64,000 bases of DNA from Pseudomonas nitroreducens TX1 (GTDB lineage Bacteria; Pseudomonadota; Gammaproteobacteria; Pseudomonadales; Pseudomonadaceae), in assembly GCF_000313755.1 (NCBI RefSeq), contig NZ_AMZB01000135.1:1-64000 (forward strand). Reading direction: 5' to 3'. Made by a program: the position numbers and the translations under genes. Below, piece after piece: positions 47,610 to 59,119 of the stretch (within the stretch, counting starts at the first letter, position 1; the number at the start of each line of letters is the position of its first letter). The notes below the pieces were generated by a model. The model made no database searches and had not been told where the DNA came from. It worked only from the letters and a program-made list of their open reading frames with translations.

Positions 47610-48518
47610 ATGCCCCGTTTCTTCGGGCGTAACGTGAAGCTATCGGTGACTCCAGTGCATACCGTAAGCACAGGACAGCTCCCTCTCCCTTCGGAGCGGG
47701 GCGCGCAGCCAGGGTTGGGGAGAGGGCGGCGGCCGCTCCGATCTTTCCAGCATCTCGTGGCCCTCCTGCTCCTGCTCTTCTGCACGTTTGCCCAAGCCGC
47801 CCAACCCATCCGCTACTGCGACTACCCCGTCTACCCGCCCATTTCCTGGAGCGACGGCCACGAAGTACGCGGCCTGGCGCCGCAGACCGTGCGCAGCGTG
47901 CTCGGCGAGTTGGGCTACGAAGTGAAGACCGTGGTGCTGGGCAACTGGAAGCGCTGCCTGCTGGACGCCGCCGAGGGTCGCGTCGATGTGGTGCTCGCCT
48001 ACCAGACCCCGCAGCGTGACGACGGCCTCCTGTTCTCCCGCGTGCCGGTGCTGCGCGAGGAAGTGGCGATCTTCTACAACCGCCGCAAGCCGGTGCGTTT
48101 CGACCAGCTGGGCGACCTCGCGCAGTATCGCGGCGGTCTGCTGTTCGGCGAGAGCTACGGGCCGCAGTTCGACCGCTTCGTCGCCGAGCACGGCAACGTC
48201 GAATGGGTCTCCGACAGCCGCCAGAACTTCGGCAAGCTGATCCGCCAGCGCATCGACTTCATCGCCCACGAGCGGCGCACCGGCACGCTGTTCGCCGAAC
48301 AACTGGCCGGTGGGCAGGACATCTTCGCGCTGTCCAAACCGCTCACCGTCGATTACCTGCGCATCGCCGTCTCCCGCCATTCCCCGCTGGCGGCGAGGAT
48401 GGACGAGATCGACGCGCTGCTGAAGAAGCGCGTGGACGACGGCAGCGTCGCCCGCTGGCTGGAACAGAGCGAGCACGACTACCGCGCCATGCTCGCCGGC
48501 GACGGGGTGCCGCGTTGA
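47610..48518 (+). CDS. Family 3 periplasmic binding-protein-like sensor partner
   Basis: A 302-residue reading frame whose conserved part starts near residue 50 with a signal peptide ([15 protein letters not shown]) and continues as a family 3 solute-binding fold ([20 protein letters not shown]; later [21 protein letters not shown]). The first 50 residues include [16 protein letters not shown], encoded by a CCCTCTCCC repeat (47681-47726). The true start is ATG 47610 (AGG site) or GTG 47757. Its stop overlaps the kinase start as TTGA, so it is coupled to AruS and may be its periplasmic ligand receptor. Confidence 0.7.
47681..47726. repeat. CCCTCTCCC repeat inside a coding sequence
   Basis: CCCTCTCCCTTCGGAGCGGG plus GCGCGCAGCCAGGGTTGGGG and AGAGGG. 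It is almost identical (one difference over 46 bases) to the inverted left arm at 55011-55056. It is translated in frame near the N-terminus of the binding-protein gene. Confidence 0.75.
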
Positions 48519-50758
48519 GGCTGCCCGGCGGCCTGGCCCGGCGCCTGCTGTTGCGGGTGCTGCTGTTCAGCCTGTGCTTCACCGTGCTGGCCAGCGTGGT
48601 GCAGCTGTACTTCGAATATCGCCGCGAGATGCGCGACATCGACAACCGGCTGGAGCTGATCCGCGTCGGCTATCTCGCCAGCTTCGAGCGCAGCCTGTGG
48701 GACCTCAACCAGGAACAGCTCAACGTGCAGCTGCACGGCCTGGCCGACTTCCCCGACATCGCCCAGGTGCGCCTGCGCAGCGCCGACTTCAACCTGGTGC
48801 AGGACGCCGATGAAAAGCGCGGGCCCTTCCGTGTCGAGCACTATGCCCTGGCTTTCCAGCCGCCGGACGGCGAGCGCCGCGACCTCGGCGAGCTGGAAAT
48901 CAGCATCGACCTGGGTGCCGTCTACCGGCGCCTGCTTCAGGGCGGACTGACCAGCCTGCTGTGGATGGGGGTGTTCCTCTGTGGCCTGGCGGTGGCGCTG
49001 AGCTGGCTGTTCCATAGCCTGGTCACCCGTCATCTGCGCGCCATGGCCGATTTCGTCCGCGGGCTCACCGGCGGCGACTTGGGCACCGAGCTGGCGCTGG
49101 ACAAGAAACGCTCAGGCGAAGAGGACGAGATCGACACCGTCGCCGATGCCCTCGACGGCCTGCGCCGCGCCCTGCGCGCCGAGTTGCGCCGGCGCGAGGC
49201 CGACCGCGCGGCCCTGCAGAGCAAGCGCGACGAACTCCAGCGCCGGGTCGAGCGGCGCACCGCCAGCCTGCGTCGGGCCAAGGAGGATGCCGAGGAGGCC
49301 AACCGCGCCAAGAGCCGCTTCCTCGCCACCATGAGCCATGAAATCCGCACGCCGCTCAACGGCATCCTCGGCATGGCCGAACTGCTGCGCGCCGCGCCTT
49401 TGGGCGAGCAGGACCGGCGCCGTCTGCAAGCACTGTCCACCGCCGGCGAAGGGCTGCTGGCGATCCTCAACGAGGTGCTGCACTTCGCCAAGCTGGAAGA
49501 CGGCGCCAGCCGGCCCGAGCCGGTGGACTTTTCCTTGCGCCGTCTGCTCGACGACGTGGTGACCCTGCTGGAGCCGCGCGCCGAGGACAACGGCACCTGC
49601 CTGCGCCTGCGTGTCGGGCCCAGGGTGCAGGATGGCTGCCGTGGCGCCGAGCAGTTCCTGCGCCAAGTGCTGAGCAACCTGCTGGCCAACGCCGTGAAAT
49701 TCACCGAGGAAGGCGAGGTGCTGCTGGAGGTCGTCGTGTTGGAGAGCGGCGACGCCGGGCAGCGTCTGCGTTTCAGCGTAACCGACGACGGCATCGGTAT
49801 CTCCGCCGAGCAGCAGGAGAAGATCTTCCAGCGCTTCACCCAGGCCAGCGACGAAGTGGCGCGACGCTACGGCGGCACCGGGCTGGGGTTGGCGATCAGC
49901 AAGCGCCTGGTGGAGGCCATGGGCGGCGAGATCGGCGTGGAGAGCCTCGAAGGCGAAGGCAGCACCTTCTGGTTCGAAATCTTCCTGGCGCAGGGCGTGG
50001 TGTCGCGTTCCACCTCGGCCGTCGAACAGGCGTCGGCGCTGGGCGTGCTGGTGGTGGAAGACGTTGCCCTCAACCGCGAAGTCGCCCAGGCGTTGTTGGA
50101 GCGCGACGGCCATCATGTCTATCTCGCCGACGACGCGGAGCCGGCGCTCGCGCTTACCGCCAAGCGAGCCTTCGACCTGATCCTTCTGGACATGCACCTG
50201 CCGGGCATGAACGGCCTCGACCTGTGCCGGGCGATCCGTGCGCAGGCCGGCGGGCTCAATGCGACCACGCCGATCCATGCCTTCACCGCCAGCGTGCAGC
50301 CGGGGATGGTCCGCCGTTATTTCGAAGCGGGCATGCAGGGCGTGCTGGGCAAGCCGCTGCGCCTGGACGACCTGCGCCGGGCGCTGTCCGACGTGGCTGC
50401 TGCGGAGCCGTCGGAGGCTGTGGATAACGGTCCGCTGGACCGCCAGGTGCTGGACACCCATCGTCGCCTGCTGGGCGAGCACAAGCTGAACGAACTGCTC
50501 GCCAGCCTGTGGAAGCTGCTCGACGAGCAGTGGCCGCTGTTGCTGGAAGCCTTGCGCCAGGAGGACGCCGTGGAGGTCGCCAGTCTGGCCCATCGGTTGG
50601 CGGGGAGCTGTCGGTCGATGGGGTTGCGCGGGTTGGGGGATGGCCTGGGGGAGCTGGAGCAGGCGGCGTTGGCGGGGGCCTTGCTGATGGATTGGGCGGA
50701 GCGGCTTGAGCAGGAGAGGGCGCTTGCCGCTGAATGTCTGAAGAGCGCTCAGGCGTAA
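48515..50758 (+). CDS. aruS: AruS-like hybrid sensor histidine kinase (HisKA-HATPase-REC-HPt)
   Basis: A 747-residue hybrid kinase. TM1 about 10-33 and TM2 about 146-170 bracket a 110-residue periplasmic domain; HAMP to about 225; coiled coil; HisKA with His275 in [11 protein letters not shown]; ATPase with [19 protein letters not shown] and [10 protein letters not shown]; receiver with Asp559 in [13 protein letters not shown]; HPt with His693 in [13 protein letters not shown]. The start is TTG 48515, overlapping the upstream stop. It should pass phosphate through D559 and H693 to the response regulator Asp58. Symbol inferred from the aruR-permease-aruHI context. Confidence 0.82.
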
Positions 50759-50798
50759 GTTCGGCATGGCACCGATGCCATCGTGGGGCGCCTGACCT

Positions 50799-50878
50799 GT
50801 AGGAGCGAGCTTGCTCGCGAACCCGCCCAACCCCGTTATGGCCGGCTGAATCCGTTCGCGAGCAAGCTCGCTCCTACG
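50799..50878. repeat. REP pair (inverted)
   Basis: TGTAGGAGCGAGCTTGCTCG and the inverse at the right, with a spacer ACCCGCCCA...GGCCGG...ATCCG that is shared with the pair at 52695-52774. Confidence 0.85.
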
Positions 50879-51041
50879 AAAACCTGAAGCCTGAAACCCC
50901 CGCCCCACGCGCCACGCACAAAATCCTTACATCTTTCTACAACTTCGATCCCGCCGAACAACGGGGTCTTACATCGCCTTCCAATAATCCGCTGGCATCC
51001 GTGCCCGAGCCACGGCCTCTGATTGATTGGAGATAACAATA
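50879..51041. promoter_or_regulatory. Promoter region for the permease operon
   Basis: AT-richer DNA (AATCCTTACATCTTTCTACA, ATTGATTGG, ATAACAATAATG) between the REP pair and the leader ORF. GGAG at 51029-51032 serves the leader start. No intrinsic terminator was seen between leader and permease. Confidence 0.45.
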
Positions 51042-51104
51042 ATGATCCAACGTAGAGTTCCGCTCAGCCGCGCCCGCCGTTCCGTGGAGGTGCGCCATGT
51101 CTGA
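51042..51104 (+). CDS. Arginine-rich 20-codon leader ORF before the permease
   Basis: ATG 51042 with GGAG 9 bases upstream opens a 20-codon frame, MIQRRVPLSRARRSVEVRHV, ending at TGA 51102-51104. Six of 20 residues are Arg (positions 4, 5, 10, 12, 13 and 18), one coded by AGA, rare in this genome. The permease ribosome site (GTGGAGG, 51084-51090) lies inside it and its stop overlaps the permease start region. This fits a leader peptide whose translation couples permease expression to charged arginine-tRNA. Too short to be sure; conservation is the test. Confidence 0.5.
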   Translation: MIQRRVPLSRARRSVEVRHV

Positions 51105-52509
51105 GTCGCAAGAGAAGATCCAGCTCACCCGCGCGCTCAAGAGCCGCCATATCTTCATGCTGTCGCTGGGCGGCGTGATCGGCACCGGCCTGTTCATGGG
51201 CTCCGGCGTCACCATCGGCTCCGGCGGCCCCATGGGCGCCATCCTCGCCTACCTGGTCGCGGGCCTCTTGATGTACCTGGTGATGGTCTGCCTGGGTGAG
51301 CTGTCCGTGCAGATGCCCGTCTCCGGCTCCTTCCAGGCCCACGCCACGCGTTTCATCGGTCCGGCCACCGGCTTCATGATCGGCTGGGTGTACTGGATGA
51401 GCTGGGCCTCCACCGTCGGCCTGGAATTCACCGCCGCCGGCATGCTGATGACCCGCTGGTTCCCCGATGTGCCGATCTGGATCTGGTCGGGCTTCTTCGT
51501 CGTCGTGCTGTTCTCCCTCAATGCCCTGGCCACCCGCGCCTTCGGTGAGGCGGAATACTGGTTCTCCGGGATCAAGGTCGCGGCCATTCTCGGTTTCATC
51601 GTCGTCGGCCTGCTGGTGATCTTCGGCGCCATCCCGCTCAACAGCGGCGCGGCCGCACCGGGCCTGTCCAACCTGGTCAGCGACGGCCTGTTCCCCAACG
51701 GCCTGTCCGCCGTGTTCGCGGTGATGATGACGGTGGTCTACGCCTTCCAGGGCTGCGAGATCATGGGCGTTGCCGCCGGCGAGACCGACCAGCCGGAAAA
51801 GAGCATCCCGCGCGCCGTGCGCAACGTGGTGTTCCGCGTGCTGATCTTCTACGTGCTGGCGATCGTCGTGCTGTCCTGCATCGTGCCATGGAAACAGGCC
51901 GGCCTGATGGAAAGCCCCTTCGTGCAGGTATTCGACATGGTCGGCATTCCCTATGCCGCCGACCTGATGAACTTCGTGATCCTCACCGCCATCCTGTCCG
52001 TGGGTAACTCCGGCCTGTATGCCTCCACCCGCATCCTCTGGGCCATGTCCAAGACCGGCATGGCGCCGCGTACGCTGTCGAAACTCAGCGCCCGCGGCGT
52101 TCCGCTCTATGCGCTGCTGATCAGCCTGGGCTTCGCCCTGCTGTCGCTGCTCACCAGCATCGTCGCCGCCGACACCCTGTTCATGGTGCTGATGGCGGTA
52201 AGCGGGATGTCCGGCACCGTAACCTGGATCGTCATCGCCTACGCCCAGTACCGCTTCCGCCGCGAGCACCTGGCCAAGGGCGGCACCGTGGCCGACCTGA
52301 AGTACGCCGCGCCGCTGTTCCCGCTGATCCCGCTGGCGTGCATCGCGATCTGCTGCTCGTTGTTCGTGTTCCTCGCCCTGGACCCGACCCAGCGGCCGTC
52401 GCTGTACTGGGGCTTCGGCTTCATGGCCGCCTGCTACCTCGCCTACTACCTGCTCAAGCGCAAGCGCGGGCAGGTACTGACCGACGAGGCGGTACCGAGC
52501 CTGGGCTGA
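51097..52509 (+). CDS. Amino-acid permease, AAT/APC family (likely basic amino acid or arginine-related)
   Basis: A 470-residue APC permease with 12 segments. LKSRHIFMLSLGGVIGTGLF at residues 10-29 and GGPMGAILAYLVAGLLMYLV are the AroP/GabP/LysP-type N-terminal signature; MSGTVTWIVIAYAQYRFRR is near 368. GTGGAGGTGCGCC precedes the ATG. Placed between aruRS and the arginine transaminase genes, it probably imports arginine or a related amino acid; specificity is not readable. It overlaps the leader ORF by 8 bases. Confidence 0.85.
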   Translation: MSESQEKIQLTRALKSRHIFMLSLGGVIGTGLFMGSGVTIGSGGPMGAILAYLVAGLLMYLVMVCLGELSVQMPVSGSFQAHATRFIGPATGFMIGWVYWMSWASTVGLEFTAAGMLMTRWFPDVPIWIWSGFFVVVLFSLNALATRAFGEAEYWFSGIKVAAILGFIVVGLLVIFGAIPLNSGAAAPGLSNLVSDGLFPNGLSAVFAVMMTVVYAFQGCEIMGVAAGETDQPEKSIPRAVRNVVFRVLIFYVLAIVVLSCIVPWKQAGLMESPFVQVFDMVGIPYAADLMNFVILTAILSVGNSGLYASTRILWAMSKTGMAPRTLSKLSARGVPLYALLISLGFALLSLLTSIVAADTLFMVLMAVSGMSGTVTWIVIAYAQYRFRREHLAKGGTVADLKYAAPLFPLIPLACIAICCSLFVFLALDPTQRPSLYWGFGFMAACYLAYYLLKRKRGQVLTDEAVPSLG

Positions 52510-57508: not shown

Positions 57509-59119
57509 ATGCAGAACAACAAGAACCTCACCGGCGGCCAGGCCCTGGTCCGCCTGCTGGCCAACTACGGCGTCGACACCGTGTTCGGCATTCCCGGTGT
57601 ACACACCCTGGAGCTTTACCGGGGCCTGCCCGGCAGCGGCATCCGCCACGTGCTGACCCGTCACGAACAGGGCGCCGGCTTCATGGCCGACGGCTACGCG
57701 CGCGTCAGCGGCAAGCCGGGCGTGGCCTTCATCATTACCGGCCCCGGCGTGACCAACGCCGCCACCGCCATCGGCCAGGCCTATGCCGATTCCATCCCGA
57801 TGCTGGTGATTTCCAGCGTCAACCACACCGCCAGCCTGGGCAAGGGCTGGGGCTGCCTGCACGAAACCCAGGACCAGCGCGCCATGACCGCGCCGATCAC
57901 CGCCTTCTCCGCCGTTGCCCTGACTCCGGAAGACCTGCCCGAGCTGATTGCCCGCGCCTACGCCGTGTTCGACAGCGAGCGCCCGCGCCCGGTGCACATC
58001 TCCGTGCCGCTGGACGTGCTCGCCGCGCCCATCGCCCGCGACTGGACCCACGAAGTGGTACGCCGCGCCGGCCGTGGCCAGCCCGCCGCCGATGCGCTGA
58101 AGCAGGCTGTGGATAAGCTCAAGGCCGCCCAGCGTCCGATGATCATCGCCGGCGGCGGCGCGCTGCATGCCGCCGACGCCCTGGCCGCGCTGAGCGAGCG
58201 CCTGGCCGCGCCGCTGTTCACCAGCGTCGCCGGCAAGGGCCTGCTGGCGCCGGAAGCGCCGCTGTCCGCAGGCGCCACCCTGTGCACCCAGGCCGGTTGG
58301 GACATGATCGCCGAGGCCGACGTGGTCCTGGCCATCGGCACCGAAATGGCCGACACCGACTTCTGGCGCGACCGCCTGCCGGTCACTGGCGAGGTGATCC
58401 GCGTCGACGTCGACTCGCGCAAGTTCAACGACTTCTACCCGAGCGCCGTGGCGCTGCTGGGCGACTCCAAGGCCACCGCCGAAGCGCTGCTCGCCGCGCT
58501 GCCCAGTGCGACCCGCGACGCGGCGAAAGCGCAGTCGCGCATCGCCGAGCTGCGGGCGCAGATCGAAGCCGGCCACGCGCCGCTGCAACTGATCCACAAG
58601 TCGATCCTGGAGCGCGTCGCCAAGGCCCTGCCGGACAACGCCTTCATTGCCAGCGACATGACCCAGCTGGCCTACAGCGGCAACTACCTCTACCCGAGCA
58701 AGGCCCCGCGTGGCTGGCTGCACCCCACCGGCTACGGCACCCTCGGCTACGGCGTGCCCGCCGGCATCGGCGCCAAGTTCGGCGCGCCGGAGCGTCCGGG
58801 CCTGGTGCTGGTGGGCGACGGCGGCTTCCTCTACACCGCCCAGGAACTGGCCACCGCCACCGAGGAGCTGGACAGCCCGCTGGTGGTGCTGCTGTGGAAC
58901 AACGATGCGCTGGGCCAGATCCGCGACGACATGATCGGCCTGGACATCGAGCCCATTGGCGTGCTGCCGCGCAACCCGGACTTCGCCCTGCTCGGCCGCG
59001 CCTACGGCTGCGAGATGCGCCAGCCGCAGAGCCTGGACGAACTGGAGCGCGACCTGCGCGCCGGCTTCGCCCATCCGGGCGTGACCTTGATCGAGCTGAA
59101 ACACGCCTGCGCCAGCTGA
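57509..59119 (+). CDS. aruI: 2-ketoarginine decarboxylase AruI (TPP enzyme)
   Basis: A 536-residue thiamine-diphosphate enzyme of the acetolactate synthase superfamily: PYR domain with catalytic Glu53 in RHEQGAGFMADGYAR, central domain about 190-340 with IIAGGGALHAADALAAL, and PP domain with the metal/TPP motif VGDGGFLYTAQELATATEEL and WNND. It decarboxylates 2-ketoarginine to 4-guanidinobutyraldehyde. GGGAGA precedes ATG 57509. AruI with AruH and an aldehyde dehydrogenase makes the three-step arginine to guanidinobutyrate route. Assignment rests on similarity and on the aruH neighbour. Confidence 0.86.
   Translation: MQNNKNLTGGQALVRLLANYGVDTVFGIPGVHTLELYRGLPGSGIRHVLTRHEQGAGFMADGYARVSGKPGVAFIITGPGVTNAATAIGQAYADSIPMLVISSVNHTASLGKGWGCLHETQDQRAMTAPITAFSAVALTPEDLPELIARAYAVFDSERPRPVHISVPLDVLAAPIARDWTHEVVRRAGRGQPAADALKQAVDKLKAAQRPMIIAGGGALHAADALAALSERLAAPLFTSVAGKGLLAPEAPLSAGATLCTQAGWDMIAEADVVLAIGTEMADTDFWRDRLPVTGEVIRVDVDSRKFNDFYPSAVALLGDSKATAEALLAALPSATRDAAKAQSRIAELRAQIEAGHAPLQLIHKSILERVAKALPDNAFIASDMTQLAYSGNYLYPSKAPRGWLHPTGYGTLGYGVPAGIGAKFGAPERPGLVLVGDGGFLYTAQELATATEELDSPLVVLLWNNDALGQIRDDMIGLDIEPIGVLPRNPDFALLGRAYGCEMRQPQSLDELERDLRAGFAHPGVTLIELKHACAS

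Follow-up and report, generated by a model that had tools for sequence, protein, structure and literature searches.

Repression by Hfq in Pseudomonas aeruginosa is reported to proceed through binding to A-rich stretches in the ribosome-binding site of its target mRNAs (PMC4063720), with ARN triplets being used for binding to A-rich RNA (PMC9890229), and in uptake and catabolism genes that are direct Hfq/Crc targets, such as amiE, A-rich ARN motifs of this type occupy the ribosome-binding site (PMC4063720, PMC9890229). In the cbrX-cbrA system of P. putida, a short open-reading frame (ORF) with a candidate 5′ A-rich Hfq/Crc site overlaps the next gene in another frame (PMC6591292, PMC8871633). 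The two ORFs are translationally coupled, an arrangement described as conserved in Pseudomonadaceae and in which the peptide sequence is dispensable: CbrA is very low when the cbrX start is abolished, and coupling is retained with a frameshifted peptide of equal length (PMC6591292). Expression is raised 2-fold in LB when crc is mutated, and repression of cbrA by Hfq/Crc by way of cbrX is the authors' proposal (PMC6591292). Upstream ORFs are also the site of regulation in uof-pqsR of P. aeruginosa, where PhrS acts at the upstream ORF and the downstream gene is coupled to it (PMC8395346), and in orf34-speF of Salmonella, where translation of an Arg-containing leader upstream of a basic-amino-acid gene is needed for speF control (PMC6386406).

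Here we analyze a 64,000-nt stretch of Pseudomonas nitroreducens TX1 (contig NZ_AMZB01000135.1, positions 1 to 64,000; hereafter, the window) in which an amino-acid permease gene is preceded by a 20-codon leader ORF. This leader shares the anatomy of cbrX and lends itself to the same reading of coupling through a dispensable peptide, but it is shorter and varies in length and frame among relatives (16-33 codons, against 58 codons and a 17-nt overlap for cbrX), has its motif exactly between Shine-Dalgarno (SD) sequence and ATG, and has probably been lost in one clade. Coupling is proven for cbrX only, and even there the Hfq/Crc step stands on the authors' inference and the crc effect. In amiE-type targets, the regulated gene has the motif at its start; here the leader has it, the leaderless clade excepted. 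Whereas PhrS activates by opening structure, the leader has an A-rich motif of the repressor type. The orf34 leader begins at nt 32, a long way ahead of speF at nt 516, and has a conserved core, HIRRT*HIMM, in which Arg-Arg is required, whereas the present leader overlaps the permease and its Arg-Arg pair is not conserved; inspection of the listed leaders by eye did not reveal that core. On the basis of the anatomy shared with cbrX-cbrA, together with the tighter motif position and the shorter, freely varying ORF, we propose that the leader functions as a translational relay, in which Hfq/Crc would block initiation at the leader and the permease would follow by translational coupling. Judging from sequence comparison and from analogy, we assign this reading a probability of about 60%.

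The leader ORF and its locus

The leader ORF extends over 51042..51104 of the forward strand, from an ATG at 51042-51044 to a TGA stop at 51102-51104, and its 20 codons specify the peptide MIQRRVPLSRARRSVEVRHV. Its SD, GGAG (51029..51032, +), is separated from the ATG by a 9-nt spacer and is invariant in the 100 distinct sequences compared below; between SD and ATG sits AACAATAA (51035..51042, +), which matches the Hfq/Crc-type motif AANAANAA, taken by us to be the Crc motif by name. The permease has its own SD, GGAGG (51086..51090, +), within the leader and its ATG at 51097-51099, where the leader stop overlaps the permease start at ATGTCTGA. Six leader codons encode Arg (CGT 51051, AGA 51054, CGC 51069, CGC 51075, CGT 51078 and CGC 51093): the first two form a CGT-AGA pair at codons 4-5 (51051..51056, +), a basic pair with conserved counterparts in relatives, and the last, codon 18, falls in the SD-ATG spacer of the permease. 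Coordinates and translation bear out the initial annotation, which had described a 20-codon ORF with its own GGAG and six Arg codons, containing the permease ribosome site and ending in an overlap with the permease start. Its statement that no terminator lies between the two holds as well, since a scan of 50740-51200 found no terminator-like site. Given this absence and the overlap of leader and permease, control is probably translational. A transcription attenuator with an intrinsic terminator was rejected, there being no hairpin followed by a T run and the two ORFs overlapping.

The 470-aa product of the downstream gene (51097..52509, +) is identified by its ORF, by family matches and by the AruS-like kinase upstream as an APC-type amino-acid permease of the aru cluster. 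Genes are arranged in the order sensor kinase, permease, enoyl-CoA hydratase, acyl-CoA dehydrogenase, another long gene and 5-guanidino-2-oxopentanoate decarboxylase, the latter matching NF005712 above cut-off, and this order matches that of the arginine transaminase cluster; the gene-order check in addition covers PA4982-PA4985. The names AruS, AruR and PA4981 are used here as presumed from gene order. PA4981, the P. aeruginosa counterpart of the permease, appears in PMC2542419 and is not among the genes named in the main text of PMC6235884, on the Crc regulon, where 'PA49' has 0 occurrences. Among NCBIfam substrate models, S-methylmethionine permease was the best match, followed by GABA permease among others; because all fall below their cut-offs, the designation 'arginine permease' is not established. 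Between the response regulator and kinase genes, an ORF at 47610-48518 has a product resembling periplasmic binding proteins; the kinase ORF as listed (48203-50758) begins within it, and the true kinase start may be further downstream. The decarboxylase (aruI-like) ORF has its likely start at 57509, immediately followed by AACAACAAGAA (window positions 57509-57525), where AANAANAA matches at 57515 and again, with overlap, at 57518; this is a candidate for direct Hfq/Crc binding within the cluster. The window as a whole contains 22 occurrences of AANAANAA (4.4 expected), some of them close to gene starts.

Upstream of the leader, a promoter-like pair of elements, TTACAT (50969-50974, +) and AATAAT (50983-50988, +), to which a function may be ascribed from sequence pattern, recurs as TTACA[TAG]-N-AATAAT in 97 of the 100 distinct sequences; a sigma-70 consensus scan of the region found no promoter. 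A second TTACAT (50927-50932, +) lies 42 nt from the first, and at least two TTACA[TAG] copies are present in 82 of the 100 sequences, as possible boxes for the response regulator AruR. Near the expected mRNA 5′ end, the pattern CCGTG-N7-CACGG (50999..51015, +) may form a hairpin, and a best-hairpin search run without shuffle control returned stems of at least 5 pairs, with varying pair types, at -56..-15 in 98 of the 100 sequences. Between the kinase and permease genes lies a near-perfect palindrome (TAGGAGCGAGCTTGCTCGCGAA ... TTCGCGAGCAAGCTCGCTCCTA, window positions 50800-50879) that resembles Pseudomonas REP elements. A search of 50700-51300 with the covariance models of Rfam 15 matched no known RNA family, returning two eukaryotic microRNA models only, on the palindrome (there placed at 50786-50891) and far below gathering score.

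The predicted fold of 50985-51140 is unremarkable (z 0.17). The permease SD is predicted to be mostly paired, with a mean unpaired value of 0.15 versus 0.19 in shuffles and with 60 of 98 sequences under their shuffle mean; control SDs give 0.11 (hydratase) and 0.28 (dehydrogenase). Burial is predicted to be strong in some length classes only, such as d=84 (0.02 vs 0.22). An SD-masking hairpin was therefore considered as a defining feature and demoted, being persuasive in L056 and L048 yet overall not above controls; the modeled burial would be compatible with a relay, and is not distinctive of it.

Conservation across relatives

Whole-genome searches identified the permease in 25 of 25 genomes of the window's genus (E up to 1e-100). 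Family-wide searches returned it in 42 of 198 (1e-180) and 64 of 398 genomes (1e-240), within 3 of 19 genera, and an order-wide sample in 3 of 145 (1e-180), none of the three lying outside the window's genus. Upstream DNA was obtained from 149 loci (L001-L149), and the permease N-terminus served as anchor in 145 of them. Setting aside L027-L030, distant homologues lacking this anchor, and L026, a second permease copy elsewhere with a variant start, left 144 loci that collapse to 100 distinct sequences (rows). These rows remain linked by common ancestry, and counts over them are therefore not counts of independent events. L149 was retained as a leader row though its permease match (G050:C1:717816-719132) has one in-frame TAG; its leader and start block are intact. 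Among contigs of named genomes, the best 80 of 147 relatives were kept, and in 80 of these 80 loci an AruS-like kinase gene lies upstream of the permease, which therefore marks them as orthologous places. The second permease copy (G018, L026:1368-1508) is 83% identical and lies away from aru genes. It follows a 46-codon leader of its own, in which the start is A-rich (GAGGACAACAAGATG) and the stop overlaps the start of that permease at ATGGCTAA; this leader repeats the architecture of the main ones with unrelated sequence, and of the ten window proteins the permease alone matches at that locus.

The start block, GGAGAYAANAAYA-ATG, is present with zero mismatches to the search pattern in 144 of the 145 anchored loci, comprising 100 distinct sequences, so that the leader ATG, the conservation of which had been put forward for checking, is kept together with its block. 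Positions -14 to -1 of this ATG are 95-100% conserved, save for -8 (80%, otherwise C) and -5. The leader start contains the motif AANAANAA in 100/100 rows and the start of the permease itself in 0/98; for the hydratase and dehydrogenase gene starts, the counts are 0/70 and 0/67, respectively. The composite pattern GGAG-N(0-7)-AANAANAATG is found once in the window, versus 0.01 expected, and 15 times in the whole genome, versus 1 for the reversed pattern. Fourteen of these 15 sites open ORFs of at least 173 codons, which indicates that the block marks working translation starts, and the remaining one is the leader; no further leader of the same build was found among the 15 matching starts in the window's genome.

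A separate leader of 16-33 codons is present in 98 of the 100 rows. Counted from the permease ATG, its stop lies at +7 (48 rows), -10 (31), +3 (6), -12 (5), -11 (5) or -2 (3), with the leader-to-permease start distance occupying all three frames (56, 31 and 11 rows). Every separate leader ends within -12..+7; the overlap at the permease start, likewise put forward for checking, proves to be one instance of a stop placement kept in 98/98 rows. For this placement, a shuffle null that kept the 3′ flank constant, with values averaged inside the 20 length classes and then multiplied across them, yields 4.4e-4. In all 48 rows where NCT at permease codon 2 makes the leader stop, this codon is TCT (36), ACT (8) or GCT (4), as compared with NCT in 6 of the 50 other rows and in 2-4% of Ser, Thr or Ala codons of the permease body, a comparison that is partly circular, because NCT makes that stop, and is further affected by start-proximal codons often being unusual and by rows sharing descent. 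Of the 98 leader interiors, none has a stop in frame 0, 3 do in frame +1 and 38 in frame +2; given how rich in C and poor in A these interiors are, an open frame by itself is only weak evidence of selection, and stop placement appears, from the sequences, to be the stronger evidence. From leader codon 7 onward, no clear third-position excess of variation was detected in four length classes. In the permease, this excess is clear in classes d=84 and d=78, small in d=49 and absent in d=55, the permease N-termini of which vary in length.

Two distinct rows, representing 14 loci, are leaderless, and in them the block's ATG starts the permease itself (MKGRKAEGI[HQ]LTRAL). We placed 10 of these 14 loci on a midpoint-rooted permease tree of 94 rows (93 loci plus L026), where they form one clade (support 100/99) within a larger, well-supported leader-bearing group and adjoin L094 (P. 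putida GM4FR), which has a leader (join support 91/90). Since this clade is nested among leader-bearing loci, the leader was probably lost there. Besides that one loss, the FastTree topology entails at least 25 leader-length changes and 12 frame changes (26 and 13 with the loss).

Arginine codons and competing explanations

The initial annotation had proposed that ribosome stalling for Arg-tRNA, or arginine itself, would gate permease translation. Its Arg content alone makes the leader only mildly unusual, given that 10 of 402 ATG-started window ORFs of 15-40 codons have at least 30% Arg. The 24 distinct rows of the window's clade have a mean of 5.6 Arg per leader, and the remaining 74 rows one of 3.1 in about 23 codons; the PA7 leader (MSHLEDPCAYSHPEVRHG) has one Arg, located in the permease SD-ATG spacer, and the L132 leader has zero. 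Tallies that allow one codon gap in 11 rows give Arg at codon 4 in 92/100 rows, Lys (61) or Arg (23) at codon 5 in 84/100, and Ala (74) or Val (21) at codon 6. Arg-Arg stands at codons 4-5 in 22 of 98 rows, 21 of them from the window's clade, Arg-Lys does so in 47 others, and an Arg-Arg pair occurs anywhere in the leader in 39 of 98. AGA, a rare codon (2 of 308 Arg codons across nine cluster genes), occupies codon 5 in 22 of 23 rows of the window's leader length and in none of other length. At Arg codons 10, 12 and 13, the 23 same-length rows show 10 non-synonymous and 3 synonymous row-level differences, a ratio that, for related rows, seems near to that left by absence of selection.

Conservation of the Arg codons is split: Arg at codon 4 and the AGA among same-length leaders are kept, and neither Arg-richness nor the Arg-Arg pair is. 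Arginine or Arg-tRNA sensing does not stand as a conserved function, with Arg-richness not maintained outside the window's clade, and arginine attenuation went unsupported in that capacity in view of the count of Arg-Arg pairs, of PA7 and L132, and of the mid-leader Arg codons, which seem unconstrained. Given the Arg at codon 4, the kept AGA and the pairs found elsewhere in the leader, a clade-specific Arg effect may nevertheless exist. Most of the later Arg codons can, we infer, be accounted for by the C-rich interior and by the SD-ATG spacer of the permease, and the conserved Arg-Lys/Arg-Ala at codons 4-6 could serve to promote initiation, to lengthen the contact with Hfq or to monitor tRNA charging.

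A leader that senses arginine, with scarce Arg-tRNA stalling ribosomes at CGT-AGA and later Arg codons and so altering access to the permease start, would have in its favor the six Arg codons, the conservation at codons 4 and 5 just described and the precedent of orf34, with two consecutive Arg codons and a setting in arginine/polyamine metabolism (PMC6386406). We nonetheless deem it very unlikely: Lys-Lys in place of Arg-Arg is reported to abolish arginine control in orf34, whereas Lys is the prevailing residue at codon 5 here; PA7 and relatives have no Arg pair; mid-leader Arg codons show no purifying selection; and the permease substrate is unproven. The C-rich, G-poor composition of the leader raises a different prospect, namely that its translation mainly shields this stretch from Rho, which would otherwise end transcription early in a coupling at the transcription level. 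C exceeds 1.5 x G in the interior of 97 of 98 leaders, the interior means being 0.47 for C and 0.21 for G versus 0.34 and 0.30 in the early permease, and translation of orf34 likewise prevents Rho termination (PMC6386406); the C-rich stretches are, however, short (about 23-62 nt), which makes Rho unlikely as the main explanation, and it could act alongside a relay.

The strength of the permease SD, a leader peptide unconstrained past codon 6, an interior kept open through composition and a clade that tolerates leader loss would all suit a relic, with the permease translated independently from its own SD and the upstream start a leftover or weak decoy. Against this stand a start block without mismatch in 144/144 loci despite many indels, stops that always fall at the permease start, often from rare codons, and the adoption of the block by the permease after leader loss, and we find the relic quite unlikely. 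Highly doubtful, too, is a two-signal leader, in which Hfq/Crc would set entry, codons 4-5 (CGT-AGA here, CGT-AAA mostly) would make early ribosome speed track charged Arg/Lys tRNA, and the C-rich rest would be exposed to Rho when devoid of ribosomes; if true, catabolite and amino-acid control would be merged in a 20-codon leader.

The proposed relay and its implications

Under the translational relay that we favor, the A-rich block between leader SD and ATG would be an Hfq/Crc site at which, during catabolite repression, Hfq with Crc would bar ribosomes from the leader. The permease start, with its own SD and without the motif, lies within the leader and overlaps or abuts its stop, so ribosomes finishing the leader would supply most permease translation, by opening local structure, by reinitiation or by both, and repression at the leader would pass on to the permease. 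Titration of Hfq by CrcZ-type RNAs would then allow both to be translated. The peptide past its first six residues would be irrelevant, what is retained being an open frame that ends at the permease start. We count for the relay that leaderless loci begin their permease at the motif-bearing start, and that 14 long ORFs in the genome are opened by the same combination of SD, motif and ATG; the strong SD of the permease and the unexplained Arg-Lys/Arg-Ala codons count against it. Binding by Hfq/Crc, dependence of the permease on leader translation and the physiological direction of control are the conditional elements of this proposal.

Literature searches did not find such a leader, or post-transcriptional control of the aru permease, in print, and the aru permease gains a candidate for control at this level. 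The striking run of Arg codons that first drew attention to the leader can be largely a by-product of C-rich composition and an embedded ribosome site. The leaderless clade, with the permease itself placed on the motif, offers a natural experiment through which the idea can be tested directly. Across the genus, the motif appears to act on the permease at one remove, via a leader whose own sequence hardly matters.
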